Origin: Hominimerdicola alba 8
GTDB lineage: Bacteria > Bacillota > Clostridia > Oscillospirales > Ruminococcaceae
Direction: 5' to 3'
DNA: 64,000 nt
NCBI RefSeq assembly: GCF_000178155.2
Contig: NZ_ADKM02000091.1
Location: 124,001 to 188,000 of the forward strand
The first letter of the stretch is position 1. Each line of letters begins with the position of its first letter. Shown here piece after piece: positions 16,331 through 36,827 of this stretch. The position numbers were made by a program, and so were the translations under genes. The notes beneath the pieces are model-generated. The model made no database searches. It was not told the origin of the DNA and was given only the letters and a program-made list of their open reading frames with translations.

Positions 16331-16393
16331 ATATATCCTTCTTTCATTTACCGTATGCAAAAATGTGCAAATTGTAAAATAACGCTTAACAAT

Positions 16394-16438
16394 ATTATAT
16401 TCCTAAAAGTGGCAGTAAAGCAATACATTTATTGCGAA
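16394..16438 (-). promoter_or_regulatory. promoter and palindromic operator of the GH67 operon
   Basis: On the minus strand: TTGCTT (16418-16423), an 18-bp spacer and TATAAT (16394-16399). The -35 lies inside the palindrome GCAATA-CATT-TATTGC (16420-16435). The extended site TTCGCAATAAATGTATTG closely matches the one on the -35 of the GGDEF gene (36854-36872). Confidence 0.7.
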
Positions 16439-16503
16439 CTTTAGCCCATTATTTGATAAGGAAAATAAAAATGTGAACATTTTGAAAAAATCACAAAAAG
16501 CTC

Positions 16504-16532
16504 TTGACATTTCGCTCTGAAGATGATATAAT
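16504..16532 (+). promoter_or_regulatory. tRNA-Pro promoter
   Basis: TTGACA (16504-16509), 17-bp spacer, TATAAT (16527-16532). An AT-rich segment upstream resembles the one before the tRNA-Thr promoter. Confidence 0.85.
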
Positions 16533-16563
16533 ATTAAAGCTGTCTGACGAGAGATGACATCAT

Positions 16564-16637
16564 CGAGACGTAACTCAGTTTGGTAGAGTGCTTGCTTTGG
16601 GAGCAAGATGCCGCAGGTTCGAATCCTGTCGTCTCGA
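16564..16637 (+). tRNA. tRNA-Pro (TGG)
   Basis: Cloverleaf folds with acceptor arm CGAGACG/CGTCTCG, D-arm with AGTTTGGTA, anticodon stem CTTGC/GCAAG around TTTGGGA (anticodon TGG), and T-arm GCAGG-TTCGAAT-CCTGT. CCA is not encoded. Confidence 0.95.
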
Positions 16638-16742
16638 CTTTGTTTTCAGCAGGTTCGCAAAGTTGTTCTTCACGGCTTCGGGAGAAGTTCGTTGGTGAAG
16701 AAAAAACAAATGTGAATAATTTGAAAACATTAAAAAAAGCGC

Positions 16743-16771
16743 TTGACAAGCGAAAGAAAATGTGGTATAAT
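16743..16771 (+). promoter_or_regulatory. tRNA-Thr promoter
   Basis: TTGACA (16743-16748), 17-bp spacer, TATAAT (16766-16771). Probably drives both tRNA-Thr and tRNA-Tyr. Confidence 0.85.
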
Positions 16772-16835
16772 GATTAAGTCGTCAGGGAGATGACGAAAAC
16801 AAAAAACACATCGGAATTACCGCTAAAGTCAATTA

Positions 16836-16911
16836 GCTGGTGTAGCACAGTTGGTAGTGCAGCTGATTTGTAATCAGCAGGTCGGGGGTTCGAGTCCGTC
16901 CACCAGCTCCA
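16836..16911 (+). tRNA. tRNA-Thr (TGT)
   Basis: Acceptor GCTGGTG/CACCAGC with discriminator T and an encoded CCA; anticodon stem GCTGA/TCAGC around TTTGTAA (anticodon TGT); T-arm contains GTTCGAGTC. Confidence 0.95.
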
Positions 16912-16946
16912 GCAAATTCATTCGGGAAGTATTCCGGGTGAATAAT

Positions 16947-18558: not shown

Positions 18559-18587
18559 TTGACATAGATAAACTGAAATGCTATAAT
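18559..18587 (+). promoter_or_regulatory. promoter of the sipW surface operon
   Basis: TTGACA (18559-18564), 17-bp spacer, TATAAT (18582-18587). The stretch 18272-18558 is AT-rich and I see no gene or clear operator in it. Confidence 0.8.
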
Positions 18588-18634
18588 TATTAATAAATAA
18601 TTGAATGATAGCCTTTAGAAGTAAGGAGAATAAT

Positions 18635-19225
18635 ATGGAAACAAATCACGAACCGCCGAAGAGCAAGAGCTTAGCGATGCTCGGCATTTTGCGGACGGTG
18701 TTTATATATCTGCTGGCGGCAGGCATAATAATTGCCGCATTGCTGTTTGCGGCATCAAAAAGCCCGAACAAGTCTATTTTCGGATACCGTTATTACACGA
18801 TACTCACGCCGTCGATGGAACCCACCCATCATGTGGGAGATATGGTATTCGTAAAGATAGAAAATGCCGATGAAATATCTGTCGGCGATGTCATAACTTT
18901 CAACCCGTCATCGGGCAGTGAAGCCTACCTTACCCACCGAGTCACCGAAAAGATGACCGACTATGAGGGTACAGGCGTGACCTGCTTCAAGACAAAGGGT
19001 GATGCGAATGACAGTGAAGACTCGTTCCTGATAGACGAGTCAAGGGTCATCGGCGCAGTGAAGCTGGGCATACCGAAACTTGGCTATGTGGTCAGGTTCG
19101 TACAGCTTAGGTGGTATTTTGTAGTACCGCTGGCAGTTCTGGTGCTGATATTCTTTAAACTTATGGGTATTTACCTTGCACCTGCCGAAAATGAAACGGC
19201 TGATGACAAGGCGCAGACCAAATAA
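18635..19225 (+). CDS. sipW: SipW-type signal peptidase I
   Basis: Membrane-bound type I signal peptidase of the ER/archaeal-like S26B group that processes TasA/BsaA-class precursors. 196 residues: one N-terminal membrane helix (about 19-40), catalytic serine in TPSMEPTHHVGD (Ser60), catalytic histidine in YLTHRV (His101), conserved KGDANDSED, and a C-terminal helix. That the second catalytic residue is His rather than Lys marks the SipW type. Start at 18635 has AAGGAG 7 bp upstream; an earlier ATG at 18605 has none. First gene of the operon that carries its probable substrate 24 bp downstream. Confidence 0.9.
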   Translation: METNHEPPKSKSLAMLGILRTVFIYLLAAGIIIAALLFAASKSPNKSIFGYRYYTILTPSMEPTHHVGDMVFVKIENADEISVGDVITFNPSSGSEAYLTHRVTEKMTDYEGTGVTCFKTKGDANDSEDSFLIDESRVIGAVKLGIPKLGYVVRFVQLRWYFVVPLAVLVLIFFKLMGIYLAPAENETADDKAQTK

Positions 19226-19249
19226 ATTATTATGAAAGGATGAAAAAAT

Positions 19250-20728
19250 ATGACAAACACAAAAAAGAAGTCCGCTAAGGAAAAACGCATACTCGTTGCT
19301 TCTATCATCGTCGCAGCAACGATCGTTGCAGGTTCTACTTTCGCGTGGTTCACATCTAAGGACGAAGTTACCAACCGTCTGTCGGCAAGTGCAAAGTATG
19401 ATGTAAGCATTGCCGAAGATTTCCAGCCCCCCGAGGAATGGGTACCGGGTCAGACCATCAACAAGGACGTTTCCGCTGTCAACACAGGCAACGTTGATGC
19501 GTTCGTAAGAATGTGGCTCGGCGGTCAGATGAGATTGCTGAATGAGGATACACCCTCTGTTGATGCAACTTCAAATGTTTCATTTACAGCTGTTAATGAT
19601 CAGAAACTTATTGATCTTGGATTGACTTACGGCACAGGAAACAATGTTTATTATCGCGAACTGAGTCAGAAACAGATCGATAATCCTAAGGACGAAGCAC
19701 ATAAGACTGATGCTAATGAGAACACAAATCAGCCTGCAACATTCAGTGAAGTTCAGTCTGTACAGGCTGGCGGTGTGCTGGTCTATGCACCTGAAAAAGC
19801 AGGTTATACATGGGAGCTTGAACAGGCTACAGAATTGCCGATCTATACTGGTGGCACCGCTACAATGACAAATGTAGCAAAGGGTACAAAAGTTGGTACG
19901 GGTAATTCTACAGCTGAAAATAAGATAACAGCTACTGACACAAATTACTTTGGTGCTATCGATGCTTCTACATTTAAGCCTGAAACAACAGGTCTGTATA
20001 TTTTCAGAAGAAATGTAGCAGAAACTGCTGATGGCACTGAAAATAAGTATGAGTACAGCGGTTATTACTATGATGCTACTCTTAACAAGTATTTTGCACT
20101 GCACAATGAAATCGGTGCTAACGGTCATTCTGACTATGTTCTGCCTGCGGGTACTATAAATGATAACAGCACAGCTACGCCCAGTAAAGATCAGGTTCTT
20201 CCTGTGACTATTAATGAAGGTAAAAAGGTATATCTGTACACCGCATCTGAAAAGGTCATAAATACAGGTTCGACAGATAATGATCTTAAATGGACTTATG
20301 ATGCAACAAATAAAAAGTTTGTAGTAACTTACGGTACCGGTGATAAGGCTGTTTCGATCGATGTAAATCTTGATAATATAGGTGATGGTGCTGAGGCATG
20401 GACTGCTATAAGCGGTACGGCAGCAGACCATACTACTACGTTCTACTACAACAACGATGTTGAAGCAGGCGACTCCACAACAAAGCTGGTTGACAGCGTA
20501 AAGTTGTCGGAGAATACCAAGAATGGTGCTTACCTTGCATTTGATTTTGACCTTGATGTATTCCTTGACTCTGTTCAGGTTACTATGGACGAGGCAGGCA
20601 ACGAGAATTTTGAACCTGTCAAGGATGGCTGGACTGTAGCAACAGGTGATACTGCAACGGCTGCAAAGGCTGAAGCGACAGTTGGCGCTCCTGAAATCAA
20701 TACTATTACTTGGACAGCTGCCAACTGA
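19250..20728 (+). CDS. BsaA/TasA-like SipW-dependent biofilm matrix protein
   Basis: Secreted protein of 492 residues and probable SipW substrate. The N-terminus carries the SipW-type signal: KEKRILVASI, a hydrophobic run, then STFAWFTSKDEVTNRLSA, with cleavage expected near the alanine of TFAW or after the Asn-Arg segment. TasA/BsaA/camelysin-family proteins assemble into extracellular fibres or matrix; that is family knowledge. The middle section, about nt 19540-20440, is visibly more AT-rich and uses other codons than the flanks, suggesting an exchanged cassette. No anchor is seen at the C-terminus. GAAAGGATG precedes the start. Confidence 0.82.
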   Translation: MTNTKKKSAKEKRILVASIIVAATIVAGSTFAWFTSKDEVTNRLSASAKYDVSIAEDFQPPEEWVPGQTINKDVSAVNTGNVDAFVRMWLGGQMRLLNEDTPSVDATSNVSFTAVNDQKLIDLGLTYGTGNNVYYRELSQKQIDNPKDEAHKTDANENTNQPATFSEVQSVQAGGVLVYAPEKAGYTWELEQATELPIYTGGTATMTNVAKGTKVGTGNSTAENKITATDTNYFGAIDASTFKPETTGLYIFRRNVAETADGTENKYEYSGYYYDATLNKYFALHNEIGANGHSDYVLPAGTINDNSTATPSKDQVLPVTINEGKKVYLYTASEKVINTGSTDNDLKWTYDATNKKFVVTYGTGDKAVSIDVNLDNIGDGAEAWTAISGTAADHTTTFYYNNDVEAGDSTTKLVDSVKLSENTKNGAYLAFDFDLDVFLDSVQVTMDEAGNENFEPVKDGWTVATGDTATAAKAEATVGAPEINTITWTAAN

Positions 20729-20783
20729 TCTAACCCCAAAAAATCTCCAAACACACTATTATTTTCCCGAAAGGAGGCTGTCC

Positions 20784-21623
20784 ATGAAAATCAAACAATT
20801 TTTCACTTCGATCATGGGCAGTCTGCTTATCGGGATAAACGCAATGGGCATAACAGCCCTTGCGGAAACTTCTTTGCCCGATGGCGCGGTAAAGGGGCTT
20901 CCGGAAAGGCTGGCGGCACTCGATGACGAGGGCAATGCAGTAAATTCCGCTACGGGTGAGTACTTCTTCCATGTGGAGGATATGCAGTTCGGTGAGGTCT
21001 ACAGCAAAAATATACAGCTGATGAACCTGCGCGAAGATCATTCGTATCACATTTATTTCTATGTCGAACCGCTTTTCAAGGCTGGCGAGATAGACCTCGA
21101 AAAGGGCTGTGAATGCAGTTTTTTTCTTGACGGTGAAGAGATATATCGCGGTGATGTCAACGGCAAAGGCAATTTTGACCTTAGCGAACAGCATTTCGAC
21201 TGCGGCAATTATGAACCGGGTGAGTCGCATGTGCTTAGGTGCGAGATAGTCTGGAACGATATAGATGTCATTCAGAACGTTGATAACGGACACAGGCTTG
21301 TCGATAAGGACGGCGAACATGTGCTGGTGGGTCCCGGTGATTCGGGTTATGCTGAGGGCGAGATAGAGTTCAAGTGGATATTCTATGCGATGGTCGATGT
21401 ACCCGACTCGCAGACAGATATCGATGACCGCAGGAGTTCTGTCCCCGACAAGCAGGAAAGCGCGGCGATACCGACCTCAAAGGCTGATGGATTTTTCCCG
21501 CCGTACACGGGCGCTGTGCTTAAAAACGGTACCGTGTGGCTGGCTGCGATGGGTGTCATCACAGTGATGATAGCTGTGCTGCTGGTGCTGATAAAGAAGC
21601 AGAAAAAGGATAAGGATAAGTGA
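20784..21623 (+). CDS. sortase-anchored surface protein with PPYTG sorting signal
   Basis: 279 residues: Sec signal peptide (residues 1-~28, ending ITALAE), a folded extracellular domain of no family I recognise (EYFFHVEDMQFGEVYSKNI, HSYHIYFYVEP, ECSFFLDGEEIYRGD), then PPYTG, a hydrophobic helix (WLAAMGVITVMIAVLLVLI) and a KKQKKDKDK tail. PPYTG fits the (S/P)PxTG type recognised by class B sortase of Clostridioides difficile rather than LPxTG. The next gene is a class B sortase whose GTG start overlaps this stop, so enzyme and substrate are coupled. Start at 20784 follows AAAGGAGG; in-frame upstream codons have no ribosome site. Confidence 0.78.
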   Translation: MKIKQFFTSIMGSLLIGINAMGITALAETSLPDGAVKGLPERLAALDDEGNAVNSATGEYFFHVEDMQFGEVYSKNIQLMNLREDHSYHIYFYVEPLFKAGEIDLEKGCECSFFLDGEEIYRGDVNGKGNFDLSEQHFDCGNYEPGESHVLRCEIVWNDIDVIQNVDNGHRLVDKDGEHVLVGPGDSGYAEGEIEFKWIFYAMVDVPDSQTDIDDRRSSVPDKQESAAIPTSKADGFFPPYTGAVLKNGTVWLAAMGVITVMIAVLLVLIKKQKKDKDK

Positions 21624-22399
21624 AAAAACTCGTTTTGTGGGCGATGGTCGTCATACTCGCCTGCGCGGGGATATATTGTGCGAAACGCTACTATGATGAA
21701 GCGTATCTGCCGCGAAAACAGCTGAAAGATGCCGACAAAGAACAGCGTGAACTGTTTGATAGGGTAAGACCCGATGTTTCCGTGACTGAGGCGCAGGCTG
21801 TCAGTAAAGAAAATGAAAGTCAGCCCGAATATGACCCGCTGGCAGACCTTAAAGCCGAAAATGACGAGTCTGTTGGCTGGCTGACCATTGATGGTACAGG
21901 CATCGATTACCCGATAGTTCAGGCATCTGATAACAGTTTCTATTTGCAGAACGGCTTTGACAAGCAGTATAACTGCGGTCTGGGCTGCCCGTTTCTGGAC
22001 TATAGGTGCGAGGGCTTCGGAGAAAGTGTTTCGATAGTCTACGCCCACCATATTCAGGGCGAACAGGCGATGTTCGCAGATATTGCAAAATATAAGGAAA
22101 GTTCTTATATGGCGGCTCACCCGCGCGGTGAACTGCTGACGGCTGATGGCATGTGTGAAGTGGATTTCTTTGCATACCTCAACATACCCAGCGATGACTA
22201 TGCCTATCAGGTGGGGCTGACAAAAAAGTCTGACCGTGACGGGTATATAGATCACATTTTTTCAAGCGCGTCATACACTTCGGGCTTTACGGCTGATGAG
22301 TTGAAACGCGGTGACACACGGCTGCTGCTGCTCTCGACCTGCACCTATGAATTCTGGGAGGCAAGGGGAGTGCTGGTGGGGGTTATCAAACAGAAATAA
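21620..22399 (+). CDS. srtB: class B sortase
   Basis: Membrane-anchored transpeptidase that joins sorted proteins to the cell wall or to each other. 259 residues: an N-terminal helix (LVLWAMVVILACAGIYCAK), then the beta-barrel with DGTGIDYPIVQASDN, the catalytic His in VYAHHIQGE near residue 143, the catalytic Cys in LLLSTCTYEF near residue 240, and a late Arg in EARGVLVGV. These features place it in class B. The GTG start overlaps the upstream substrate gene by 4 bp. The giant SpaA-like protein gene follows. Confidence 0.9.
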   Translation: MKKLVLWAMVVILACAGIYCAKRYYDEAYLPRKQLKDADKEQRELFDRVRPDVSVTEAQAVSKENESQPEYDPLADLKAENDESVGWLTIDGTGIDYPIVQASDNSFYLQNGFDKQYNCGLGCPFLDYRCEGFGESVSIVYAHHIQGEQAMFADIAKYKESSYMAAHPRGELLTADGMCEVDFFAYLNIPSDDYAYQVGLTKKSDRDGYIDHIFSSASYTSGFTADELKRGDTRLLLLSTCTYEFWEARGVLVGVIKQK

Positions 22400-22568
22400 G
22401 CGGTTTTTCTTGTTTTACACCGCCTAAACGGAAATTTACGGCAGCGTATACTGCCTGATGTATATATTCTTGCTATGAAATAATAACGCATCTGATTTCC
22501 GCAAAACTGGGATTCGGGTGCGCGTTATGTTATATGGAGATATTTTTCTGAAAGGAGATGATCGGATA

Positions 22569-25500
22569 ATGAGAACAAAGACAGCTTTCGGACGAGTGAT
22601 GGCTTTTATGCTGGCACTGGTCATGGTGCTTGATCTGTTCGGTGAACGCACTGCGTATGAGATACTGGGCGGATTGAAAACATATGCGGCGGCTTCCGAT
22701 TATTCGGTCGGATTTCACTGGGATACAACAGGTCTTGGCGAGAACAACGGTACAGACCGTGAATACTCCCTTGACAAGAACAGCACCGAACTGACACTGA
22801 CAGAGAAAACAGATGAAAACCCTGTGCTAAAAACCACTTTCTTCTTCAATCTGGCAAAGAAGATAGAACCGGGCAACATGGAATTCACCATAACAGGTCT
22901 TGATGAACTTATCAGAAACGGCAAGCTGACCATGAACCTCAACGACCCTAACCTCGTAGGCACATGGGATTATGTCAAGGACGAGGCGACTGATACCTAT
23001 ACTTTCATCAACAAGGTGGAGATAAGTTCAAATAACGAAACTACTTTCACATGGCAGTTCAATTCGCGCGATGCTGTGGACGGCGCGGATATCGAACTTA
23101 AGACCTCCGTAAAGGTCACTGAGGTCGAAACAAAGAAGACATATGACGAAGAAAAGGGCGAATGGGTGACCGAGAAGATACCGAAACTCCCCGCTATCAC
23201 ACTTGAGTCGAACCCCATAAACTTAAAGTACCATTCGGTGCATGATGAGAACAATGTCAAGATAGTCTGCAAGGATATAAACGATACCGATTTCAATAAC
23301 CTGAACAGCAAATATGACTGGCGAAGCTACCGTTCGGTGCTGGGTCTTGACGGCATGACCGAGTATACGAAGAAAAACGGTACAGCGACCGATGCCTCAA
23401 ATCAGGAATTAGATGCCCATATCATCGAACAGAACTATGATGAACAGGTAGCTAGCCGAAAGTCGAGGGGCATAAAGACATCGGATCATTTCATCGAGGT
23501 CAAATTAGACGGATTGCAGAAAGAAGATCTGATGGTCGTAAACTCGGCAGGCAATGTAGTGCCGCTGGTGATGAACGGCGATATGCTGGGCTTCTACGAT
23601 TTTCGCGGAAGAGGTGACCAGAAGGCGGGTCAGAGTTACACTTCTGAGTACCGCATCGGTGTTCTGAATGATGTCATCGACTCAACAGGCAGCCAGAAGA
23701 TAACGCTGACATCTCACTACCTTGTGCAGTATGACGATGAACAGACAGTTGTCGATATCACCGATACCGCCGCCCATTACCTTTCAACGGAAGACAAACA
23801 GCCTGTTGGCAACGGCGGTTATATGGTCAAGTATAATGAGTATGAGATAAATCTGGCGAAAGAATATGACAAGCATTGGTATGAATCCCATGCAAGACAT
23901 TACAACGGCGCTAATCAGTTGTTGTATGATAACATATTCAGCGGCAAGGTCGTCACCTATAGTCTTACAGGCCGCACACCGCGTCTGGAAGAAAAGAACT
24001 CAGCAGGTGATGTGATATCCGTTCCCGAATATGACCTTGTCTACTTTGACGGCGCACCCGATATCAAAAACCTTAAGGATATCGAAAGCAGACAGCTGGA
24101 GTACAGCGAGTATGACTTCACGCGCATATCCGTGAAAAAACTGGTAAAGGGCGATTCTGTCACTCTTGACCCCAATACCACTACAGGTTTTGATTTTGAT
24201 ATTTTTGTCAGGTCGAATGACCCTCAGTCTGAACTTTACGGCAAATGGACAAAGGTCGATGTTTCGGGCAATGCCATAACAGGTGCGGCGCACACGGGCA
24301 ATACTGTCACCGAAACGCCTGTGTATCTGCCTGCGGGCGTTGATGAGATACAGCTTATAGTGCGCGACCTGAACATTCGTGCCGATGTTGGCGCAAATGT
24401 CGATATCGCCTACAACGTCAGGGAAGAGGACTACGACCGCATCATCATCGATACCGAGAATTTCTATAACAGCGCTGGCAGGGCGACAGAAAATTCAAAC
24501 TTCGGCACTAAGCTGGTGAACTATTTTGAACGCAGACAGTTTGTCGGTGATTATGATGTCACCAAGACTTATGCCGAGAATGACAGTTCTTCTGCTTACG
24601 AAAACGGCAAGATAGTCAGGAATACCCACAACACTGTGCATTCAAATACGTGGCTGAGAGATTCTGTTACCACCATAGATGCCAAAGCAGGCATGAAAGA
24701 TTTTGAGTACCACGAAATGACAGGTCATGGCGCGAGCAATTATTACTCCGCCGAGATAACTGCGGGCGGCACTGTACAGTCTGATACGCAGAAAGCGCTT
24801 CAGCGATTTGCGGTATATTCGCGCGTGCCCGATAACCTGACCATTGACGAAAACTGGCTGGAAAAGTTCAGACAGTCGCTTAAATTCAGCGGAACTCTGC
24901 TGGGCGGTTCGACTGCTGTTGATGAGAACTTTGTGCTGGAAAACGATGCGGTAACCGTGTACTATGATGAAGAGCGGAAGTGTGTCGTGGCAGAATTTGA
25001 TTTCAGGGGCATGGCACTCGATTCAAGTGCGCTGACCTCTGTTGAATTTGGGTATGATGCGAATATAACCCAGATGCAGTTCAGTGCACTGGATACATCG
25101 ACCGAATGGTTCCGTACAAATGCTTTCATCACTGTGCTCGATGATAATGTGCGGCTCTCCGCATCGAAAGACCACAACAAGACCCTTCTGCCCGCACGCG
25201 ACAGCCTGAACCCCACAAAAGGCACTGCCTATGAGCGTGAAGTGTCGATGGACTCGGCACAGGTGTCGATACATGCGCTCGGCTCGCAGAAGAGCAACTA
25301 TGTGAACAAGTACGTGTCAAGCTATTACAACGGTTGGGTCTATGACAACTCAGCTGAGGTAGATGGCAGTAACGCCGAACACCTCGATGAAAACACAAAG
25401 CGCATGACATCGGAGTATACCTATAAGCTGTTGTTCAACAGATATTCCACCGATGCGCGCGAGAAAGTTTCAGACCCGATATTGCTTGATATCGTTGACG

Positions 25501-28500
25501 GTCTGCAAGACTCCGCATGGCATGGCTATGTCAGAAATGTGCATTTTGAAGCGGGCGACAACTATGAATACACCCCGGAGGTCTACTATCTGCTGAGAGA
25601 GTCAGCAGGTGTTTCGGAAAGTACAGACGGCACATACAACCATGCCTATGGTAAAGTCGATGATTCGATATCACATCTGAGTCAGTACGGCGCGACACCC
25701 GCATCTACAGATGTTGGCAGTAACTATGCCGCAGACCTCGCCGTATACAGCGGACTTAAAGATGATATAAGTACTAGCTGGGAAAAAGCGCAGTATACTG
25801 ACGGAAAATATGTCATAAACCGCCAGAATGTCTATGCCGTAGCCGTTATTTTTAAGGGCGCACACATTGTTGGTGATGACAAGGAAATGCAGTTGAGGGC
25901 TTACATCGATATGAGCGCACCCTCATTGACCAATGACGGTGCTGATGCCAACAATAACCGCGCAGCTTATAACGATACCCACGTTTTTGCAGAGGGTGAG
26001 AACAGCGTCAACGGTGTTGATTTCCCAATGTACTCTGTCAGCAATACAACAATGGTGATCATGCGCCATAACGTAGAACTGATGAAAGTAAGCGCAAAGG
26101 ACGGAAGCAAGCGTCTGACAGGCGCTAGGTTCAACGTTTATAAGGGTTCGCCTGCGGCGGGTACTGAAGTTGATTCTGATGACAATTTAGTTTGGTACTA
26201 TGAAAAGGGCGGAAATGAGCAGTTCCCGATGGAAAACAAAGCCGTAAATCTGGCAGGCGTTTTGCAGATGAACCTTTCGCCGGGCATCTATTATTACAAG
26301 GAAACCAAAGCACCTGCCGGTTATGTGCTTGACCCGACCCTGTTCAGGTTCCGCGCCATATCAGATGAAAATTCGGTGTTCTATTACACCACCGATCTGA
26401 AAACTGCGGAAGAGATCGATCGTGAACACCTGATAGTCAACAAGATGGAGTATGATGCTTATCAAAACTCTGTCTACAGCGGCAGAGATCCGGTCGATGC
26501 AAACAAAGTCTTCCACATCTACAGTGATGACGGAATTATGTTAACAGAACTTGCATATGATGCAGTTCAACAGGAATACATCTATGACCCTGACAGTGAG
26601 TCGGCTTCTGCTGTTCTTAAGTGTCAGTGTGTCGATCACGGTGTCAGATGCCTGAAAGTGTCATCGCTGCCTGCGGGTTCATATTTTATTGGCAGCAGCG
26701 CTGATGACCCCGATGGCTATTGGTTCAGTGTTGCAGATAACAGCACCATCACTTTCATGATACTTAAAAAGATGCCTATGGCAGGCGTGAAGTATCAGCT
26801 GAGGCTTATGGAGGGTTCAGAACCCGCCGCAAATGACGAACAGCTTTATGAGATAACAACAGGCAGTGATGGTCTGGTGCACCTGACAGGGCTTGACAGC
26901 AGCAAAAAGTATTATCTGGTGAACACTGCTGCCCCGATAGGCTACAAACTTGTTAAATATCAGCCTGTCACACCCGATGCAAACGGCGAGATAGATCTGT
27001 ATTCGGCAGAACAGCTTGAAAAGACCGAACGCCTTGTGGTCGAAGATGACCCCATCGAAACCGCGATGGCTAAATTCCGTAAGATCGATGCGAACAGATA
27101 CAGCGAAGAGGGCAAACCTGAGGTCCCCCTCAACGATGCTGTCTACCACATGTATTATATCGAGGATGACGGCTCTGAGTCACTGTTGTATTTTGCATAC
27201 AGCGAAGCTAAAAAAAGCTACACGCTCAAAGGCACAAGCGGTTCAAGCAGTCATACGGCTGACCTGACCAGCGTCAGCTACACCGAAAAGAATGCTCTTA
27301 GCGAAGATTTCACCGCCGATGGCATGATAGTTGTCAGCGGGCTGACCTACGGCACATATATCCTTGAAGAAGTATCTGCACCATTGGGCTATCAGCTGAA
27401 CAGGCAAAGGCAGTATTTCAACGTTATGCCCTCTTATATAGACGAGTTCGGAAATGTCAATTTCTCTGATGAGGGCGAACTGAAAGGTACGCTTTTGCTG
27501 AAAGATGAAGAGGTGCTGAGCAGGATAAGGCTGACAAAGTCAGATGCACAGGATAAGAAAAACGTGCTGAAAAATGCGGCATACAATGTCTACAGACTGT
27601 CTGAGAATACCGATGATACCCTGTCGGCTGAGGACTACCTTACAGCGGCAGAGAATGCGGCGGTCAATTCGCTGGGCATCACAAACTCCGCAAACTTCAT
27701 GAAGTACTGGGGCGAGCCGATAAAGCAGGTGACCACCAATGCAAGCGGTGAAGCGCTTATCGAAAACCTGCCATTCGGCACATATCTGCTGTATGAGTTC
27801 CTGCCGCCTGTGGGCTATCTTTGGAACAATGATATGGGCAAGTGGGAAACGTGGTCTTTCATCGACGGTGAAAACACTGCTGATGACCTGCACAGTCAGG
27901 TGGTCGTTATCGATCAGCAGACCATCACCCACAACAGCACGCTCACCGATACAGCAGTTGCCGATGAAAACGGCACACAGCCCAATGAAGACGGCTGGAT
28001 AGAAACTTATCGCAAAGTGCCTGAGTACCATGAATTTTTCGCATCGCACTCCGATGAACGCAAAAACGGCAAGGCAAGACTCATCAAGACCAACGAAGAC
28101 AGACTGGGCTTGTCAGACGGTGTGTTCGCGCTTTATCAGGTTAACCTGACCGATGCTGAAAAAGCGAAAGTGCTGGGCAAAACTCCCGAAGAGTTCGCGG
28201 CTATGTCTGACAGTGATATCAGAAAAGAACTGGCTAAGACCGACCCTGAGATAACCGATATAAACATCAGCGACCATTTTGACTTATCTAAGGGCAGACC
28301 AAAGACTGTGGTCGGTAATACCGATGTGACCATAGACAAGGCGATAAAGCAGGATATGCAGACCAACGGCGACCCTGCCAAGCGCGGTGCTACCATTACC
28401 GCTGACGGTCTTGAATGGGGCATCTATTACTTCTATGAGGTCAAAGCACCTGCGGGCTATCAGGAAGACAGAACGCCTTATGTGTTCGCAGTGAACTCCC

Positions 28501-31500
28501 GTTCGGTGGACACACTTATCGAGGTCGAGGTCACCGATGCCAAGACCTACGGCAAGGTATGGCTTTATAAACAGGCTAAGGAAAGCGTTGACGGTAATCA
28601 CACCAAGCTGTTCGGCGCACAGTTCAATTTGTATACAGGCGATAATGAAAAGGTCATGTCAGTGCCGATGCTCAGGCTGTCCGATAAGCCGAACGCTTCG
28701 GTAACTACCAAAGAACTGTTGGTTGACAGCTTTACTGTCAATGACAAGGATAAGCTGACCTTTAATCTCAAAGACGGCGGCAGTGTGACCGTAACATACA
28801 AACTTGACAACAGCGGCGATATATTACATGTTGCTGCAAGTGACGATTTTGCAGACATCTACGGCTTTACGCCGACGGTCAGCGACCTGCGCCTTACTTA
28901 CTACGCAGTTTCGGCAGACGGCAGCAGCTATTATGACGATAACAAGAAAAAGTATGTCTTGTTTGACGGTTCGGCTGACAGCCAAAAGATAAAAAGCTGT
29001 ATCACTGACACTTACGTGACGGCAGACCAGGGCGGTCAGCTTTGTGTCAGAGGTCTTGACTGGAAGTCATACTACTTCCGCGAAACTGTCCCGCCTGAGG
29101 GCTACGGTCTTGCAGATGATGTGGTGTTCACAGTGAATGCCTATAACTGCGATAACCAGTTCCTCAAATGCGAAGACCCAAGTGCTATGGCGGCAATAAT
29201 CGTTGACAAGGAGATACCGAGCGCTGAGTACTTCAAGGCTTACGGCGAACCGACTTTCATGTTCAAGGTCTATGGGCTGAGTACAGAGGCAAAAGGCAGT
29301 GCTGTGAGAACGGTGAACGGCGATGACTACTACAAAACAGGCAAGGAGTACACCCTTGCGATACACCTTTCGGCGGCTAATGCGGCGGCTGACGGCACTG
29401 TGAGTGGTTCGGCTATGGTAAGTGTGCCTGAGGGTCAGTATCTTATCGAAGAACTGCCTGTGTCGAGGTACGAGTGCTATGGTCTGGAAATGGTCGGTGA
29501 CCCCGCTGACACAACAGCAAAGTACAAGTCTGTCGGCATGGACGATAAGACTTCTTACACGGTATGCAGGTCTGATAAACATAAGTACGAAGTTGACGGC
29601 GGCGCGTCATGGCAGGCTTTCTGTGACCTGACAGAAAGCGACTTAGACGATATTCCTGTATTCCGTGTAAAATACAAGAACAGGATAAATCGTTACGACA
29701 ATTTCAGTCAGGTGTCATACGCCGACAACCGCATACCCGAAAGCGAGTATCTGACAGCTTTCAAACCCATCTACAAACCCCTTGTGCCTGTATATGGCGG
29801 CGCTGAAAGTACCTACACCTATGAGATAGACCTTAAGTCTGCGCTGGGAAGTGCTGACAAGGACTTTGAAGCGGTGCTGAGTTACAACACAGGCACTACA
29901 AGACCGCTGACTTCACTGAACAATGTTTCGTTCAAGTCAACCGTTGATAATGTGGATAATATCACCGATGTGTCATTTGATTCCGCATCGGGCATACTGA
30001 AAATAACTGCCCAAAACCCCGCAAGTTTCGCAGGTCAGACTATTCTGCTGGACGTAGGCTACGGCAACGACGGCGAATACAACGAGGGCGATACGGGAAT
30101 GGTCAAGAGCACGCTTAACCTTACGTTCAGCGAGATTCAGGCTGACACAGTAAAAAAGCTGGTGCTGAAAAACGATGTGTCTAACAGGTCGTATTTCCCG
30201 CAGGCGGAAGGTGCAGGCAAGGACAGCACAGTGGCAGTCATCTACACAAAGCCTGTGGGCAGCAACACCTACACAAAGTCTATGCAGGACGCTTCACAGA
30301 CTGACACGCTGACCGTTCTTGACGGCTATGCGCTGTCATACTGGTATCTGCTTGGTGATGACGGCAGACCTCTGACAGACATAAACGGCGATGTGATACA
30401 GTTCAGGCGGAATGAAGATGCGTCAAAGGACGAGATAGTGCAGTACATTTTCAGCGGAACATGGCCTGCATATCTTGCCGCCAACGACAAACACGGCGAC
30501 CTCCTGCCCGAAAAATATACCCGCCCGCAGCCGGTCGATAACATTTCGGCATTCACATTCCAGGCAGTTGTCGGAAAAATCACGGAAAAGCCGTTGACTG
30601 CTAGGGTGATATTGACTACTAAAGATGCGCTTAATGACAGCGGTATATTAGGCATAAATAATGCAGGATATGTATCCGGTAAGATCACTGGTGTGACTCC
30701 ATCAAATATGACCGCATTTAAGGAGGGTAACGAAGCTGGTTGGAATAGCTGTGATGATAACCATAGATTGACATATGACTCTTATGCAGGAAATTATCCT
30801 TCCGGTTCTCCTTATCCTGATTATGTTCGATTCTATGCTATTGGTACAGAAGTCTACTGGTATACTGTAGATAGAGAAACTCTTCTTCCTACAAATGGAA
30901 CAGTATATTTGGTGCAGAACGAAAATAATTATAAAAATACGCCCAACCTGTTTATGAATTATAAAATGCTTTCAGATGTAAGCGGCATGTTTGATTGGGA
31001 TTTTTCCGGCATGAATATGTGTGGATATATGTTCCAAAATACAGCTATCACCGAGTTTACATTATACAGACCTATTAAGAAAACCGGGTTGATGTATTTG
31101 AGCAGAATGTTCCGTGATTGTAAAAAACTGGTTTCTGTTTCAATGACAGTGGATACGTCTGAAGCTGGAAACGGTACTGTATGGGGACCGGAAGATACAT
31201 ATATTTCCGCGCAAACAAAGCAGATGTTCTTTGGATGTGAAAATTTAACTACACTAGATCTTTCAGGTGATTTCTCAAATCTGTTTAATGCGCAAGAAAT
31301 GTTCAGAGGATGTAAGGGGCTTACAGCTTCTGAGTTTAAGCGAGCATTCTCAACATGGATCTGGAATACCAATGATAATATCAATATGCAAAAATATGGC
31401 AAAAACAATGGTGACTATATTTTCGAGAATTATAACAATGTGGAAGATCTTCAAGGTATTGACCTTGTTGATGCAAATGGAAATCACTTTCAGCGTAAAT

Positions 31501-31526
31501 ACAACACAATTATTAATGCTTCATAA
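22569..31526 (+). CDS. giant SpaA/Cna-B-domain surface protein with BspA-like C-terminus
   Basis: About 2985 residues. Signal peptide at 1-~45 (FGRVMAFMLALVMVLDLFG...TYAAA). Residues ~45-1160 form a large N-terminal region resembling adhesin head domains. From ~1165 to ~2300 there are about seven prealbumin-like SpaA/Cna-B repeats, recognisable by end motifs YYYKETKAPAGY, YILEEVSAPLGY, YLLYEFLPPVGY, YYFYEVKAPAGY and YYFRETVPPEGY, whose Glu supports Lys-Asn isopeptide bonds. One repeat has Asn in place of that Glu (YYLVNTAAPIGY). Residues ~2770-2980 resemble DUF285/BspA repeats (SGMFDWDFSGMNMCGYMFQN, MFRDCKKL, MFFGCENLTTLDLSGDF). No LPxTG-type signal or terminal helix is present. The last ~900 bp are AT-richer than the rest. 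AAGGAG lies 11 bp before the ATG at 22569. Last gene of the locus. Confidence 0.82.
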   Translation: MRTKTAFGRVMAFMLALVMVLDLFGERTAYEILGGLKTYAAASDYSVGFHWDTTGLGENNGTDREYSLDKNSTELTLTEKTDENPVLKTTFFFNLAKKIEPGNMEFTITGLDELIRNGKLTMNLNDPNLVGTWDYVKDEATDTYTFINKVEISSNNETTFTWQFNSRDAVDGADIELKTSVKVTEVETKKTYDEEKGEWVTEKIPKLPAITLESNPINLKYHSVHDENNVKIVCKDINDTDFNNLNSKYDWRSYRSVLGLDGMTEYTKKNGTATDASNQELDAHIIEQNYDEQVASRKSRGIKTSDHFIEVKLDGLQKEDLMVVNSAGNVVPLVMNGDMLGFYDFRGRGDQKAGQSYTSEYRIGVLNDVIDSTGSQKITLTSHYLVQYDDEQTVVDITDTAAHYLSTEDKQPVGNGGYMVKYNEYEINLAKEYDKHWYESHARHYNGANQLLYDNIFSGKVVTYSLTGRTPRLEEKNSAGDVISVPEYDLVYFDGAPDIKNLKDIESRQLEYSEYDFTRISVKKLVKGDSVTLDPNTTTGFDFDIFVRSNDPQSELYGKWTKVDVSGNAITGAAHTGNTVTETPVYLPAGVDEIQLIVRDLNIRADVGANVDIAYNVREEDYDRIIIDTENFYNSAGRATENSNFGTKLVNYFERRQFVGDYDVTKTYAENDSSSAYENGKIVRNTHNTVHSNTWLRDSVTTIDAKAGMKDFEYHEMTGHGASNYYSAEITAGGTVQSDTQKALQRFAVYSRVPDNLTIDENWLEKFRQSLKFSGTLLGGSTAVDENFVLENDAVTVYYDEERKCVVAEFDFRGMALDSSALTSVEFGYDANITQMQFSALDTSTEWFRTNAFITVLDDNVRLSASKDHNKTLLPARDSLNPTKGTAYEREVSMDSAQVSIHALGSQKSNYVNKYVSSYYNGWVYDNSAEVDGSNAEHLDENTKRMTSEYTYKLLFNRYSTDAREKVSDPILLDIVDGLQDSAWHGYVRNVHFEAGDNYEYTPEVYYLLRESAGVSESTDGTYNHAYGKVDDSISHLSQYGATPASTDVGSNYAADLAVYSGLKDDISTSWEKAQYTDGKYVINRQNVYAVAVIFKGAHIVGDDKEMQLRAYIDMSAPSLTNDGADANNNRAAYNDTHVFAEGENSVNGVDFPMYSVSNTTMVIMRHNVELMKVSAKDGSKRLTGARFNVYKGSPAAGTEVDSDDNLVWYYEKGGNEQFPMENKAVNLAGVLQMNLSPGIYYYKETKAPAGYVLDPTLFRFRAISDENSVFYYTTDLKTAEEIDREHLIVNKMEYDAYQNSVYSGRDPVDANKVFHIYSDDGIMLTELAYDAVQQEYIYDPDSESASAVLKCQCVDHGVRCLKVSSLPAGSYFIGSSADDPDGYWFSVADNSTITFMILKKMPMAGVKYQLRLMEGSEPAANDEQLYEITTGSDGLVHLTGLDSSKKYYLVNTAAPIGYKLVKYQPVTPDANGEIDLYSAEQLEKTERLVVEDDPIETAMAKFRKIDANRYSEEGKPEVPLNDAVYHMYYIEDDGSESLLYFAYSEAKKSYTLKGTSGSSSHTADLTSVSYTEKNALSEDFTADGMIVVSGLTYGTYILEEVSAPLGYQLNRQRQYFNVMPSYIDEFGNVNFSDEGELKGTLLLKDEEVLSRIRLTKSDAQDKKNVLKNAAYNVYRLSENTDDTLSAEDYLTAAENAAVNSLGITNSANFMKYWGEPIKQVTTNASGEALIENLPFGTYLLYEFLPPVGYLWNNDMGKWETWSFIDGENTADDLHSQVVVIDQQTITHNSTLTDTAVADENGTQPNEDGWIETYRKVPEYHEFFASHSDERKNGKARLIKTNEDRLGLSDGVFALYQVNLTDAEKAKVLGKTPEEFAAMSDSDIRKELAKTDPEITDINISDHFDLSKGRPKTVVGNTDVTIDKAIKQDMQTNGDPAKRGATITADGLEWGIYYFYEVKAPAGYQEDRTPYVFAVNSRSVDTLIEVEVTDAKTYGKVWLYKQAKESVDGNHTKLFGAQFNLYTGDNEKVMSVPMLRLSDKPNASVTTKELLVDSFTVNDKDKLTFNLKDGGSVTVTYKLDNSGDILHVAASDDFADIYGFTPTVSDLRLTYYAVSADGSSYYDDNKKKYVLFDGSADSQKIKSCITDTYVTADQGGQLCVRGLDWKSYYFRETVPPEGYGLADDVVFTVNAYNCDNQFLKCEDPSAMAAIIVDKEIPSAEYFKAYGEPTFMFKVYGLSTEAKGSAVRTVNGDDYYKTGKEYTLAIHLSAANAAADGTVSGSAMVSVPEGQYLIEELPVSRYECYGLEMVGDPADTTAKYKSVGMDDKTSYTVCRSDKHKYEVDGGASWQAFCDLTESDLDDIPVFRVKYKNRINRYDNFSQVSYADNRIPESEYLTAFKPIYKPLVPVYGGAESTYTYEIDLKSALGSADKDFEAVLSYNTGTTRPLTSLNNVSFKSTVDNVDNITDVSFDSASGILKITAQNPASFAGQTILLDVGYGNDGEYNEGDTGMVKSTLNLTFSEIQADTVKKLVLKNDVSNRSYFPQAEGAGKDSTVAVIYTKPVGSNTYTKSMQDASQTDTLTVLDGYALSYWYLLGDDGRPLTDINGDVIQFRRNEDASKDEIVQYIFSGTWPAYLAANDKHGDLLPEKYTRPQPVDNISAFTFQAVVGKITEKPLTARVILTTKDALNDSGILGINNAGYVSGKITGVTPSNMTAFKEGNEAGWNSCDDNHRLTYDSYAGNYPSGSPYPDYVRFYAIGTEVYWYTVDRETLLPTNGTVYLVQNENNYKNTPNLFMNYKMLSDVSGMFDWDFSGMNMCGYMFQNTAITEFTLYRPIKKTGLMYLSRMFRDCKKLVSVSMTVDTSEAGNGTVWGPEDTYISAQTKQMFFGCENLTTLDLSGDFSNLFNAQEMFRGCKGLTASEFKRAFSTWIWNTNDNINMQKYGKNNGDYIFENYNNVEDLQGIDLVDANGNHFQRKYNTIINAS

Positions 31527-31538
31527 TCCATAAACACT

Positions 31539-31573
31539 GATGCCCGCAGGCAAGATCTGCGGGCATCTTTTTA
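31539..31573 (+). terminator. terminator of the giant-protein gene
   Basis: GATGCCCGCAG (31539-31549) pairs with CTGCGGGCATC (31557-31567), followed by five T. Confidence 0.9.
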
Positions 31574-31576
31574 TGC

Positions 31577-31605
31577 AAAAAAGCCGCCGAAAAAACTCGG
31601 CGGCT
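31577..31605 (-). terminator. terminator of the convergent SipW operon
   Basis: AGCCGCCGA (31582-31590) pairs with TCGGCGGCT (31597-31605); on the minus strand a run of six T follows. Confidence 0.88.
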
Positions 31606-31617
31606 GAAATATTTTGT

Positions 31618-32301
31618 TTATCCCGCAAAATCATGCCACGCACTTTTCCAGCCGTTCTGTTCATCGGCTGTGTAGTCGGTGCCGTCTTCGGCTTTTACAG
31701 TCTGTACGCTTTCGGCGTAAACATAAACATCGTGGGCGGCGGGGTCGGTGCCGCTGTAGTCCATGTGTACCCATGAAAGCAGTTCTTTCGTGGACTCGCC
31801 CGCCTCGACAGGCTTTGTGTAGTAATAATAGCCTGCGGTCACTGACGGTTCGGTGGGGCTTTCCTCACGAACATACACCCAGCCTTCGGGCAGATCGTTT
31901 ATGTAGTACTTCGTGTCTTCTGTGTCTTCTCCGACTTCTGCCTTCCTGAATGTGGCAAGAAAGTCATCATAACCGTCATCGCTGACATTCGGCGCTTCTT
32001 CGCGCATATCAGCCGAGAATGAAGCCTTCGACTGTATATCAGAGTCGGACATCTCCAGCCGTACCCGCACATAACAGGGAACACTGCCCGTGTTGTCTAT
32101 CTGTACCAGCTTGCGGTAGAAAAAGTCGTTCGTCTGGTCGGGCGGCGTGAAAACTTCTGAAACGTTTATCTTGTCTTCGCCCACGCCCACAAGGTTAGGC
32201 TTTTTGTCTTTGGCACCGAAATATGCCAGTACAGCCCCGATCGCCGCCAGCATAAGAACACCGACCGAAACAGCGGCGGCAGTTTTCTTTTTCTTTGTCA
32301 T
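31618..32301 (-). CDS. SipW-type exported protein
   Basis: 227 residues with an N-terminal KKKK tract, one hydrophobic segment ending AVLAYFGAKDK, and an extracellular region with DKINVSEVF and IDNTGSVPCYVRVRLEMSD, the beta-sandwich pattern of camelysin/BsaA proteins. The signal is a degenerate SipW type: AYF is kept but the usual D-x-xTN is lost. Last gene of the minus operon, 14 bp after its neighbour, with AAAGGAG 7 bp before the ATG. No anchor. Function beyond being a surface or matrix subunit is not evident. Confidence 0.7.
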   Translation of the reverse strand: MTKKKKTAAAVSVGVLMLAAIGAVLAYFGAKDKKPNLVGVGEDKINVSEVFTPPDQTNDFFYRKLVQIDNTGSVPCYVRVRLEMSDSDIQSKASFSADMREEAPNVSDDGYDDFLATFRKAEVGEDTEDTKYYINDLPEGWVYVREESPTEPSVTAGYYYYTKPVEAGESTKELLSWVHMDYSGTDPAAHDVYVYAESVQTVKAEDGTDYTADEQNGWKSAWHDFAG

Positions 32302-32315
32302 CTGACAGCTCCTTT

Positions 32316-33143
32316 CTATGGGGTCGCCTCTTTATTGCTGACGACTGCGTATATCTTTTTAAGGTCATCGGCGCTGTAAGGGCGATCTGCTGTGCCGTCA
32401 CCCGAAAGTCCGCTTATCTCCAGCGCGTCAGCCTGAATGGTATAAGCATTTATCTGCACCTGACCCACAGTCCCTTCCGCAATATCAGCATCAACTACAC
32501 TGCGCATCTGCAAGCGGTCAAAGATGGGTATGGTGACCTTGTCAGGGGCGACCCATTCGCTGTAGCCCAGCAGATATATGTCATAACTGCCGTCCATCAT
32601 GCCCTGAACTTTGGTTATATCTTCGGTGCGCGGCGATATATCTGTCAGTTCAAGATATTCCCACCCCGCCGCCGAATTTGTGGCTTTGTTGTAAGAGAAT
32701 TCCCACTTGCACTTATCTGTCGGTTCAAGGATATAGCCTTTTTCTGTGCCGTCCTCAACGCCTGCCAGCAGATTGAATATCGCCTGCGTTTGCAGAAATT
32801 CCTCAGCCTTTGGCGGTTCTGACAGCGTGACCCCGTCAGGGACGATGCGCTGACCGTCCGCATCAAGGAATGCGGCTTCCATACGCGGCAGATAAACTTC
32901 TGCAAAGAAAAGTTCTTTTACACTGCCCGTATTTTTCACGCTGGGCTGTTTGGTTATTATCTGACCCGCAGAAAGTTTTTGGTCTTCATCGAAATCCTCT
33001 TCTATCTTAAGCGCGACCTTGCCGACAGTGAACTTGTTGACGGCATTGTCTGTGCTTGTCAGGAAAGCGAGCGTCGCACCGACCAGTGCCAGCGCACTAA
33101 GGCTCGCGATCAGTGCTATTTTTTTCAGCTTTGAACGTTCCAC
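32316..33143 (-). CDS. SipW-dependent exported protein
   Basis: 275 residues. N-terminal SipW-type signal: KKIALIASLSALALVGATL, then AFLTSTDNAVNKFTVG. The mature part begins VALKIEEDFDEDQKL and carries KQPSVKNTGSVKELFFAEVYLPR, the same layout as the plus-strand BsaA protein (AEDF, VPGQTINKDVSAVNTGNV). Starts at GTG 33143 with AAGGAG 7-8 bp upstream, inside the last 47 bp of the signal peptidase gene, which implies translational coupling with the enzyme that cleaves it. Confidence 0.78.
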   Translation of the reverse strand: MERSKLKKIALIASLSALALVGATLAFLTSTDNAVNKFTVGKVALKIEEDFDEDQKLSAGQIITKQPSVKNTGSVKELFFAEVYLPRMEAAFLDADGQRIVPDGVTLSEPPKAEEFLQTQAIFNLLAGVEDGTEKGYILEPTDKCKWEFSYNKATNSAAGWEYLELTDISPRTEDITKVQGMMDGSYDIYLLGYSEWVAPDKVTIPIFDRLQMRSVVDADIAEGTVGQVQINAYTIQADALEISGLSGDGTADRPYSADDLKKIYAVVSNKEATP

Positions 33144-33678
33144 TTTTTATCTCCTTTCCTGTTTTTTCATCTTTTTTAGTCGGTATGAAGCTGGTGACCA
33201 TCAACAGTACTATTACAACTGCCGCCAGCACCCTGCCTGTCCTGCGGTGTAAAAAAACAGCGGCAGTACCTATCTTCGGTATAACGAATACCGTCTTGCC
33301 GATGTAATTTTCAGCAGTCACGGGCGAGGTGTCCTCAGTGTTGTTGGCATCGCCTTTTGTGGTGTATCTGCCGTCGTTTATGGCTGTTACCCTGTGGGTG
33401 ACCAGCGCACTCTCGCCCATTCTGAAAGATATCACATCACCGACCGCAATGCTTTCCAGCGTGGCGTTCTCGTTAACGAAGCATACGCTGTGTACAGGTA
33501 TCGCAGGTACCATCGAACCTGTTGTGACCACATAAGGCTTTATCTTTGCCAGAAAAAGCGCCGTTACCGCTATCGCACATATTATGATGAGCGTTGTCAC
33601 AAAAGAAGCAGCCTTCTGAACCGCCGACCATATTGTACGCAAGATCACGGTCACAGTTCTTTGCTCAGGTAATGCCAT
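33097..33678 (-). CDS. second SipW-type signal peptidase
   Basis: 193 residues: N-terminal helix (VTTLIIICAIAVTALFLA), catalytic Ser in VVTTGSMVPAIPVHS (Ser55), catalytic His in ALVTHRV (His95), conserved KGDANNTEDTSPV, and a C-terminal helix followed by a charged tail. As in the gene at 18635, Ser and His but no catalytic Lys are seen, so it is of the SipW/S26B group. It overlaps genes on both sides (28 bp and 47 bp), each encoding a protein with a SipW-type signal. The two SipW loci converge and probably serve separate substrate sets. Confidence 0.87.
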   Translation of the reverse strand: MALPEQRTVTVILRTIWSAVQKAASFVTTLIIICAIAVTALFLAKIKPYVVTTGSMVPAIPVHSVCFVNENATLESIAVGDVISFRMGESALVTHRVTAINDGRYTTKGDANNTEDTSPVTAENYIGKTVFVIPKIGTAAVFLHRRTGRVLAAVVIVLLMVTSFIPTKKDEKTGKEIKSGTFKAEKNSTDREP

Positions 33679-34373
33679 ACTTTATCTGCCTTTGTTTCTG
33701 TTTCGTCAGAGGATTTGAGATACTCTGTCTGAATGCCGAAGACTTTTATATCTATGAACTGCGAACTGCCCGAAAGCGCATCGTCCTCGCGGGCGTTGCA
33801 GAATATCACCTTGTCAAACAGGGGAGTATCAGTGGTCTTGCCGGGATACAGCACCGCCATGTCATCGACAGCGGGGTCATCATTATCTGTCCATGCGTAA
33901 AGGTATGTTATTCCCGTGACTTTGCCGCTGTCATCGGTATTTTTGCGGGTATAGTCTGCCATCGGGTGCCAGCCCTTGTTGAACAGCTGTTCACTGCCGA
34001 GTGCATCGGCTGAATATTCATCATCGCTGTTTATAAAGCGAAAAAGCGGTACAGAACAGGTATTAAGTTTTATGCCCTTGTCATCGCCGCTGTTTTTTTC
34101 AAGTGTTACCTCCTGTACAGGCACAGTCACCTGCATGAAGACATAAGCGGGTGTCTTGTCGGTATTGACGATATACGGGTCTTTATCGACCTTCTGTTCG
34201 GGGACTATAGTCGGGTCATTCCGCCAGTGCGGTTCGGTGACACGTATCTGCAAAGTCGCTGACCCGAAAGTATTTGTTACATTGTCAACGCTTGTAAAAT
34301 ACGCAAGCGTCCCCGCAATGACTGTGAGCGCAGTCATTGACAGCGCCAGCATGCGGCGTTTGTTTCTTCCCAT
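33651..34373 (-). CDS. SipW-dependent exported protein, first gene of the minus operon
   Basis: 240 residues. Signal RRMLALSMTALTVIAGTLAY then FTSVDNVTNTFGSA is a textbook SipW-type sequence. The mature part has RVTEPHW and DPYIVNTDKTPAYVFMQVTVPV, a TasA/BsaA-like pattern. Start at 34373 (AAGGTG upstream) rather than eight codons earlier. A minus-strand promoter lies about 110 bp upstream. No anchor motif. Confidence 0.78.
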   Translation of the reverse strand: MGRNKRRMLALSMTALTVIAGTLAYFTSVDNVTNTFGSATLQIRVTEPHWRNDPTIVPEQKVDKDPYIVNTDKTPAYVFMQVTVPVQEVTLEKNSGDDKGIKLNTCSVPLFRFINSDDEYSADALGSEQLFNKGWHPMADYTRKNTDDSGKVTGITYLYAWTDNDDPAVDDMAVLYPGKTTDTPLFDKVIFCNAREDDALSGSSQFIDIKVFGIQTEYLKSSDETETKADKVWHYLSKEL

Positions 34374-34482
34374 TTTTTCACCTTCGTTCTGTTTCACAAG
34401 CCTGCATATAAAGCGTGTGTGCTATTATGCGCTATTTTGCTTTTGTGTTAAAAATATGGTCGTGCAATATTTATATACTGTT

Positions 34483-36769: not shown

Positions 36770-36827
36770 ATGTATCATCTCCGAACAAAAGAATTGCAGC
36801 AAAAACATTCTTACATCATTTAATAAT

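Follow-up and report, generated by a model that had tools for sequence, protein, structure and literature searches.

The DNA analyzed here is a stretch of 64,000 nucleotides (the window) from Hominimerdicola alba 8 (contig NZ_ADKM02000091.1, positions 124,001 to 188,000), and its positions 18635 to 34397 raise the question of whether two SipW-type signal peptidases, the exported proteins encoded beside them, a sortase and a giant SpaA-repeat protein belong to one surface structure. These genes lie together in the window and are linked in other genomes, exported proteins among their products carry SipW-type signals, and one protein with a sorting signal is encoded beside the sortase. Our results support grouping the sortase unit with both SipW units, as the three co-occur far above chance. 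We lean slightly toward the interpretation that the locus is one surface-fiber module, split here into two convergent operons, with the roles for its parts that are proposed below. In Ruminococcus of the rumen, this conserved gene set, which includes that of a giant adhesive protein, appears to build protein fibers. A single enzyme may attach these fibers to the wall, and the set may help the cells to hold on to plant fiber or to each other.

Open reading frame calls and library scans place nine genes in this region, five on the plus strand and four on the minus strand, all where a preliminary description of this DNA had put them; the end that it gave, 34373, is an internal ATG of the last gene, but the frame stays open to 34397. 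On the plus strand, the signal peptidase SipW1 (18635 to 19225; 196 amino acids [aa]) is followed by Bsa (19250 to 20728; 492 aa), a BsaA-family protein with a SipW-type signal and our candidate for the major fiber subunit, by the PPYTG protein (20784 to 21623; 279 aa), which has a Sec-type signal by eye and a C-terminal sorting signal and is the proposed wall-linked base, by the SrtB-like class B sortase (21620 to 22399; 259 aa), and by the giant exported protein (22569 to 31526, with its ATG at 22569; 2985 aa). The gaps between these genes are 24, 55, -4 and 169 bases. The minus-strand unit reads E3 (33651 to 34397; 248 aa, shortened to 240 aa if the ATG at 34373 is the start), SipW2 (33097 to 33678; 193 aa), E2 (32316 to 33143; 275 aa) and E1 (31618 to 32301; 227 aa), with gaps of 14 bases for E1/E2, -47 for E2/SipW2 and -28 for SipW2/E3.

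Both peptidases pass the cutoff of TIGR02228 (51.85 bits; SipW1, 84.5 bits; SipW2, 86.4 bits), which agrees with their earlier recognition as SipW-type enzymes; their residues are Ser60/His101 and Ser55/His95, respectively, as stated there. Both stay below the cutoff of the Bacillus SipW equivalog NF046067 (190; 79 and 74 bits). The genome of 4.05 Mb has three further TIGR02228 matches elsewhere, two of them over the cutoff. In a phylogenetic tree, 41 SipW1 rows form one clade (support, 100/100), and 31 SipW2 rows lie inside a 32-row group (support, 100/97) that includes one long-branch outsider, L006; the remaining SipWs of the genus are placed separately from both. The rows (repeat loci L079, L110 and L119 omitted) had been labeled by their scores against the two proteins of the window, so that this grouping is partly expected from similarity, and the program warned of long branches.

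Some unusual SipW genes were also seen. In genome G000 (contig C15, approximately 206 to 213 kb; positions 11611 to 14607 and 16267 to 16932 of locus L046), a 998-aa frame with a DUF2357 region and a SipW-type peptidase domain adjoins another SipW gene, and frames of 973 to 1027 aa with a TIGR02228 or SipW2-like match are present in several other genomes of the genus and in genomes of the loci described below. In L085, SipW2 shares a single 288-aa frame (6360 to 7226) with the latter half of a BsaA-type protein; this is either a fusion or an effect of assembly or deletion.

The preliminary description had counted one BsaA-like protein on the plus strand and three exported proteins on the minus strand. 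The family scores agree with this and add that E1 to E3 are members of the BsaA superfamily. Bsa exceeds the TIGR04090 cutoff of 60 at 86.6 bits, and E1, E2 and E3 stay below it (51.3, 40.5 and 25.4 bits). The SipW-type signal model TIGR04088 (cutoff of 19) matches E2 (24.1 bits) and E3 (31.7 bits), each of which carries a SipW-type signal, and gives no match to E1. A profile comparison nevertheless relates E1 to the Bsa family (hhalign probability, 98.9 over 79 N-terminal columns, signal included) in spite of its TIGR04090 score, and E1 is therefore assigned to the superfamily only; it also matches the corresponding proteins of the other arrangement described below (98.2 over 183 columns).

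A rule-based scan for C-terminal sorting signals was positive for 50 of 51 proteins of the PPYTG family, including that of the window. The motif reads PPxTG in 34 of the 50 and TPFTG, SPITG and the like in the others; one of the 51 calls reports the pentapeptide SRRTS, probably a wrong pick. The same scan found no sorting signal in 97 BsaA-type proteins or in 26 giants with an intact C-terminal end, a number of giants that is low because the SpaA model, built from one domain of the window, misses frames of approximately 2600 to 2900 aa in L091, L092, L104, L113 and L126 (the last of which runs off its stretch). The sorting signal is thus confined to the PPYTG protein, and SrtB has one recognizable substrate in the cluster, in line with the pairing suggested earlier. 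The sortase itself had been called a sortase B. It is class B-like by TIGR03064 and by its His, Cys and Arg motifs (AHH, STCT and ARG, starting at residues 142, 239 and 248 and kept in three aligned orthologs), but at 124.2 bits it stays under the equivalog cutoff of 153.75, which is exceeded by the sortase of L164 (158.4 bits). For SrtB of Clostridioides difficile, SPxTG or PPxTG motifs have been proposed and cleavage of SPKTG has been reported (PMC4371152).

Two further observations concern genes of the PPYTG type. Contig ACOK01000109 of Ruminococcus flavefaciens FD-1 has two PPYTG genes with neighbors (L101 and L130), and the L130 gene, which lies in three frames, looks broken. L045 (4679 to 11352; genome G056, from another family of the order) is a parallel locus with a SipW gene, four BsaA-type genes, a 958-aa DUF5979 protein and a protein with a PPQTG sorting signal.

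How general is this grouping? A genome collection queried with four PPYTG orthologs yielded 56 loci, or 57 places with the window. The records of 34 loci bear the name Ruminococcus (R. flavefaciens is among them), those of the others Oscillospiraceae, Lachnospiraceae, Clostridia and similar names, and many come from rumen or other ruminant-gut samples. Repeats among them (L079 and L041, L110 and L042, L119 and L039, as well as L108/L109, L101/L130, L129/L134 and L094/L115) were kept in the counts of linkage, sorting signals, giant tails and strands. Thirty-nine places extend 4 kb or more upstream of the PPYTG gene. In 34 of these, SipW1 is found no more than 4 kb from that gene (the misses being L094, L118, L122, L128 and L130), and a BsaA-type gene is found so in 35 (misses, L094, L115, L118 and L122). 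Among the 51 places with at least 2.5 kb downstream, SrtB is found within 2.5 kb in 46; in 48 of 51 cases, the next gene 3' of PPYTG is that of SrtB.

Since loci found through the PPYTG protein cannot reveal SipW units that lack it, we also searched an even sample of 396 family genomes, taken from a larger set and including that of the window, with chosen E-value thresholds of 1e-3 for PPYTG, 1e-30 for SipW1 and 1e-25 for the SipW2 profile; the first 6 to 8 candidates per genome were scored, and absences are accordingly not certain. SipW1 is present in 16 of the 396, each of which also has the PPYTG protein; the latter is found in 19 genomes in total (17 of these at E < 1e-30). One genome with a strong PPYTG match (G331) has no SipW1 at the threshold and has another SipW beside the PPYTG gene. 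The SipW2 profile matches 70 of the 396 genomes, comprising 14 of the 16 with SipW1 versus 56 of the 380 others (Fisher test, 8e-10, a P value inflated, like any of co-occurrence here, by shared ancestry). In each of these 14 genomes the match is at a place other than SipW1, and of the 10 genomes with SipW2-profile scores above 190 bits, 9 have SipW1. The preliminary description had asked whether the SipW and sortase units occur independently in related genomes. Linkage, co-occurrence and, in part, the SipW tree argue against this.

The order of the genes varies considerably. Both SipWs are visible in 26 of the 57 stretches and share a strand in 24, the exceptions being the window and L097, a count that is biased against the wide convergent layout because a convergent SipW2 lies approximately 14 kb from SipW1 and mostly beyond the stretches covered. 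Places that were read further or separately add opposite strands in L039, L156, L157, L160, L161 and L167/L168 and the same strand in L163 and L164. A common one-strand order, SipW1-Bsa-PPYTG-SrtB-SipW2-BsaA-type-giant-BsaA-type, is that of R. flavefaciens FD-1, Y1 and MA2007. The convergent order of the window recurs in L156, L157, L160 and L161, in L039 without SrtB, and partly in L155, L158 and L159. L110, L111 and L112 read giant-E1-SipW2-SipW1-Bsa-PPYTG-SrtB, with SipW genes that abut or overlap, and in L122 and L124, E3-E2-E1 runs into PPYTG-SrtB. Finally, L164 (genome G280, from another genus of the family) has a BsaA-type gene, SipW1, Bsa, PPYTG, a SipW2-type gene, a BsaA-type gene, SrtB and a 1873-aa frame, with a DUF11-type repeat and unmatched by the giant and SpaA models, on a single strand. 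These varied arrangements, including the single run of L164, indicate that the convergent form is one arrangement of one module.

The giant protein requires separate treatment. Its 2985 residues and its SpaA/Cna-B character, as previously described, are confirmed by six SpaA stretches (PF17802, 6.1e-49), which have partial kin among isopeptide adhesins and pilins. A library scan placed the best significant stretch of no family within the N-terminal ~1100 aa, and the C terminus resembles a PARCEL-type repeat, below the cutoff. The export signal is an ordinary one, by eye, and a motif scan of the protein found neither a sorting signal nor a YPK-type pilin motif. On present evidence, the giant would therefore be neither anchored nor polymerized by SrtB. 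The idea of one combined organelle is thus partly supported: the SipW and sortase units belong together, but the place of the giant in a sortase-built structure, which the idea included, is not upheld.

Adhesion to plant fiber, among the functions suggested earlier, is hinted at only by relatives of the giant. The fibro-slime domain TIGR02148 (cutoff of 45), known from cellulose-adhesion proteins of Fibrobacter (PMC4668043), is present in five of the seven giants scanned (L087, L088, L101, which is that of R. flavefaciens FD-1, L106 and L111; 47.2 to 55.4 bits), but neither the giant of the window nor that of L164 matches it. The five are all from other arrangements, and the giant of the window is the sole one of its type among the seven. 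Another feature of the relatives is a tail of the form AYLSSQAYAENTI. Of 28 giants scored, with repeat loci counted, 14 have it, starting 14 to 25 residues before the C terminus (L087 to L089, L093, L096 to L099, L101, L102, L106, L107, L128 and L130), and the other 14, that of the window among them, lack it. Within each giant that has it, the tail ranks first or second among all matches to the N-terminal motif of the fiber subunits, with modest scores of 4 to 11 bits versus an average of 35 for true N termini. As the 14 giants are related and the tail was noticed before scoring, it counts as about one independent observation.

We propose that SipW1 would release Bsa, the large BsaA-type protein, and that Bsa would polymerize extracellularly through strand exchange in the manner of TasA; SipW2 would release the smaller E1 to E3 as accessory or alternative fiber parts. 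SrtB would link the PPYTG protein to peptidoglycan, and the PPYTG protein would serve as base or nucleator of the fiber, the role thought to be that of TapA in Bacillus. The giant, with its ordinary signal and no anchor of its own, would be an elongated adhesin, made stiff by its isopeptide-type domains and held noncovalently on the fiber or the wall. The module would serve adhesion or the building of communities in the rumen. A more elaborate form of this proposal is an organelle of hybrid type: a strand-exchange fiber like that of TasA would grow from a sortase-anchored base, and the giant would be a fiber-binding cap plugged in noncovalently by a donor-strand-like tail; we put it forward as tentative and rather doubtful.

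Several points weigh against a single fiber module. Polymerization, the contacts between the parts, anchoring and function are all steps that we infer. Of the traits of a TasA-type donor-strand fiber, the one observed at the locus is the SipW-type N-terminal motif. The structure model of the PPYTG protein (predicted local distance difference test score [pLDDT], 78.7) matches the TasA fiber 8aur weakly (Foldseek rank 11; E value, 1.7e-3; probability, 1.00; template modeling [TM] scores, 0.33/0.39), and BcsB, CBM6E and other folds give slightly better E values with lower TM scores. Profile comparisons of PPYTG with BsaA-type proteins gave P values of 0.001 to 0.22, none reliable, and the best of them aligns signal peptides only. 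Given the weak structural match and these unreliable comparisons, we do not claim the PPYTG protein as a proven TasA-fold protein. The model of Bsa, of fair confidence (pLDDT, 81.2), has no convincing fold match, and searches of PDB sequences with the PPYTG and Bsa alignments found nothing relevant. SrtB is missing beside the PPYTG gene in 5 of the 51 places (L081, L082, L084, L087 and L119) and is thus not strictly required at the locus. The module is also patchy: besides the low count of SipW1 among the 396 genomes, it was identified in four of the 29 genomes of the genus (G000, G001, G002 and G018). In one genome (G087), the searches detected no SipW1 and no PPYTG, but E3-SipW2-E2-E1 is present along with a further BsaA-type gene and a portion of a large frame of surface type; conversely, G307 and G408 have SipW1 and PPYTG with no SipW2-profile match, G408 being in 270 contigs and the SipW1 match of G307 having two stops, with several of its genes in pieces.

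These genomes favor the view that two fiber systems, SipW1-Bsa-PPYTG-SrtB-giant and E3-SipW2-E2-E1, merely travel together as surface genes, as does the presence of a separate signal peptidase in either unit and, in the window, of a separate promoter-like site and terminator-like stem for either; the units are on opposite strands in eight places (the window, L097 and the six listed above). Against this stand the 24 places with both SipWs on one strand, joined by L163 and L164, the abutting or overlapping SipW genes of three loci, the run of E3-E2-E1 into PPYTG-SrtB in two and the single run of all parts in L164, and we regard two separate systems as unlikely. A similarly improbable account takes the locus to be a biofilm-matrix operon like that of Clostridium perfringens, with an unrelated surface protein anchored by SrtB and the PPYTG protein standing outside the fiber. 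It would fit the report that srtB deletion mutants of C. perfringens kept their BsaA polymers and pellicles unaffected (PMC7395162), itself a point against a role of SrtB in the fiber, as well as the Sec-type signal of the PPYTG protein and its want of demonstrated homology to fiber proteins. It is less easily reconciled with the strong conservation of this protein (mean column identity of 48% over 47 rows with 35 invariant columns, versus 25% over 39 rows for Bsa), with its position between Bsa and SrtB in many loci and with its presence in every genome that has SipW1.

SpaA-type sortase pili of Gram-positive bacteria have SpaA/Cna-B-like domains and a neighboring sortase, and the giant shares both features, its gene being directly downstream of the sortase gene. 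A covalent pilus in which SrtB polymerizes or attaches the giant as shaft or tip would nevertheless be very improbable, as none of the intact giants has a sorting signal, the YPK-type motif is lacking in that of the window, and the sortase is class B-like rather than of class C, the type that builds pili. The giant as shaft of a sortase pilus was rejected on the grounds of the missing sorting signal and pilin motif. The single fiber module is our preferred interpretation, by a slight margin.

The signals flanking the genes are consensus matches. A promoter-like site (TTGACA-17-TATAAT with an extended -10; 18559 to 18587, plus strand) precedes SipW1 and matches the sigma-70-type consensus at 12 of 12 positions, and terminator-like stems readable on both strands (31539 to 31605) separate the convergent units; across the region, 40 sites of the promoter type and 24 of the terminator type were counted, versus 27.1 and 14.1 in shuffled sequences. 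At the gathering threshold, neither the window nor any of six related loci gave a cyclic di-GMP (c-di-GMP) riboswitch. Directly upstream of the minus-strand unit, a protein with a LacI-type periplasmic-binding domain and a GGDEF domain is encoded (34859 to 36856, minus strand), which could link this unit to c-di-GMP signaling.

In our judgment, the wall attachment of TasA/BsaA-type fibers seems poorly settled, and a conserved sorting-signal protein and sortase beside fiber genes make covalent anchoring directly testable. The locus is also a candidate adhesion system for rumen ruminococci, including R. flavefaciens FD-1, beside their cellulosomes and type IV pili. A gnotobiotic sheep study mentions type IV pili and the cellulosome, and not this cluster, in the portion covered (PMC8092306), and six terms searched for in the covered portion of an extracellular proteome study of R. 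flavefaciens 007 (PMC3672088) gave no match.

Among described systems, B. subtilis tapA-sipW-tasA (PMC9674648, PMC10151520) resembles the locus in its SipW-released fiber protein and in an accessory protein thought to be an anchor or nucleator; TasA fibers form via an N-terminal donor strand (PMC9674648). As described in these sources, that operon has neither a sortase nor a SpaA giant, and TapA is itself processed by SipW, in contrast to the Sec-type signal and sorting signal of the PPYTG protein. TasA-CalY-CapP of B. cereus resembles the locus in comprising a pair of subunits of the TasA type plus an accessory protein associated with the surface, but all three are processed by SipW, and the authors call the system sortase independent (PMC13082335). 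The bsa operon of C. perfringens, sipW-bsaABCRSD, also resembles the locus; it has a SipW-type peptidase, a BsaA-family fiber protein that is compared with TasA and polymerizes without sortase, other exported proteins, and srtB in its 5' flank (PMC7395162, Obana 2020). In the account given there, it differs in having one SipW rather than two and in having two-component genes, of which none was found among the genes called at 18605 to 34397, and no anchored partner is described for its srtB, which is dispensable for polymer and pellicle. The locus of the window differs from it in the conserved sorting-signal protein between the BsaA gene and srtB and in the giant SpaA-repeat protein. In the literature searched (open-license PMC, mostly titles and the openings of abstracts), we found no description of a conserved module that combines a giant with a pair of dedicated SipWs and a conserved partner bearing a sorting signal. 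The statement of the preliminary description that TasA/BsaA fibers and sortase structures are normally described apart must be tempered by the C. perfringens precedent. As SipW-BsaA beside srtB has already been published for C. perfringens, this cluster varies a known kind of system.

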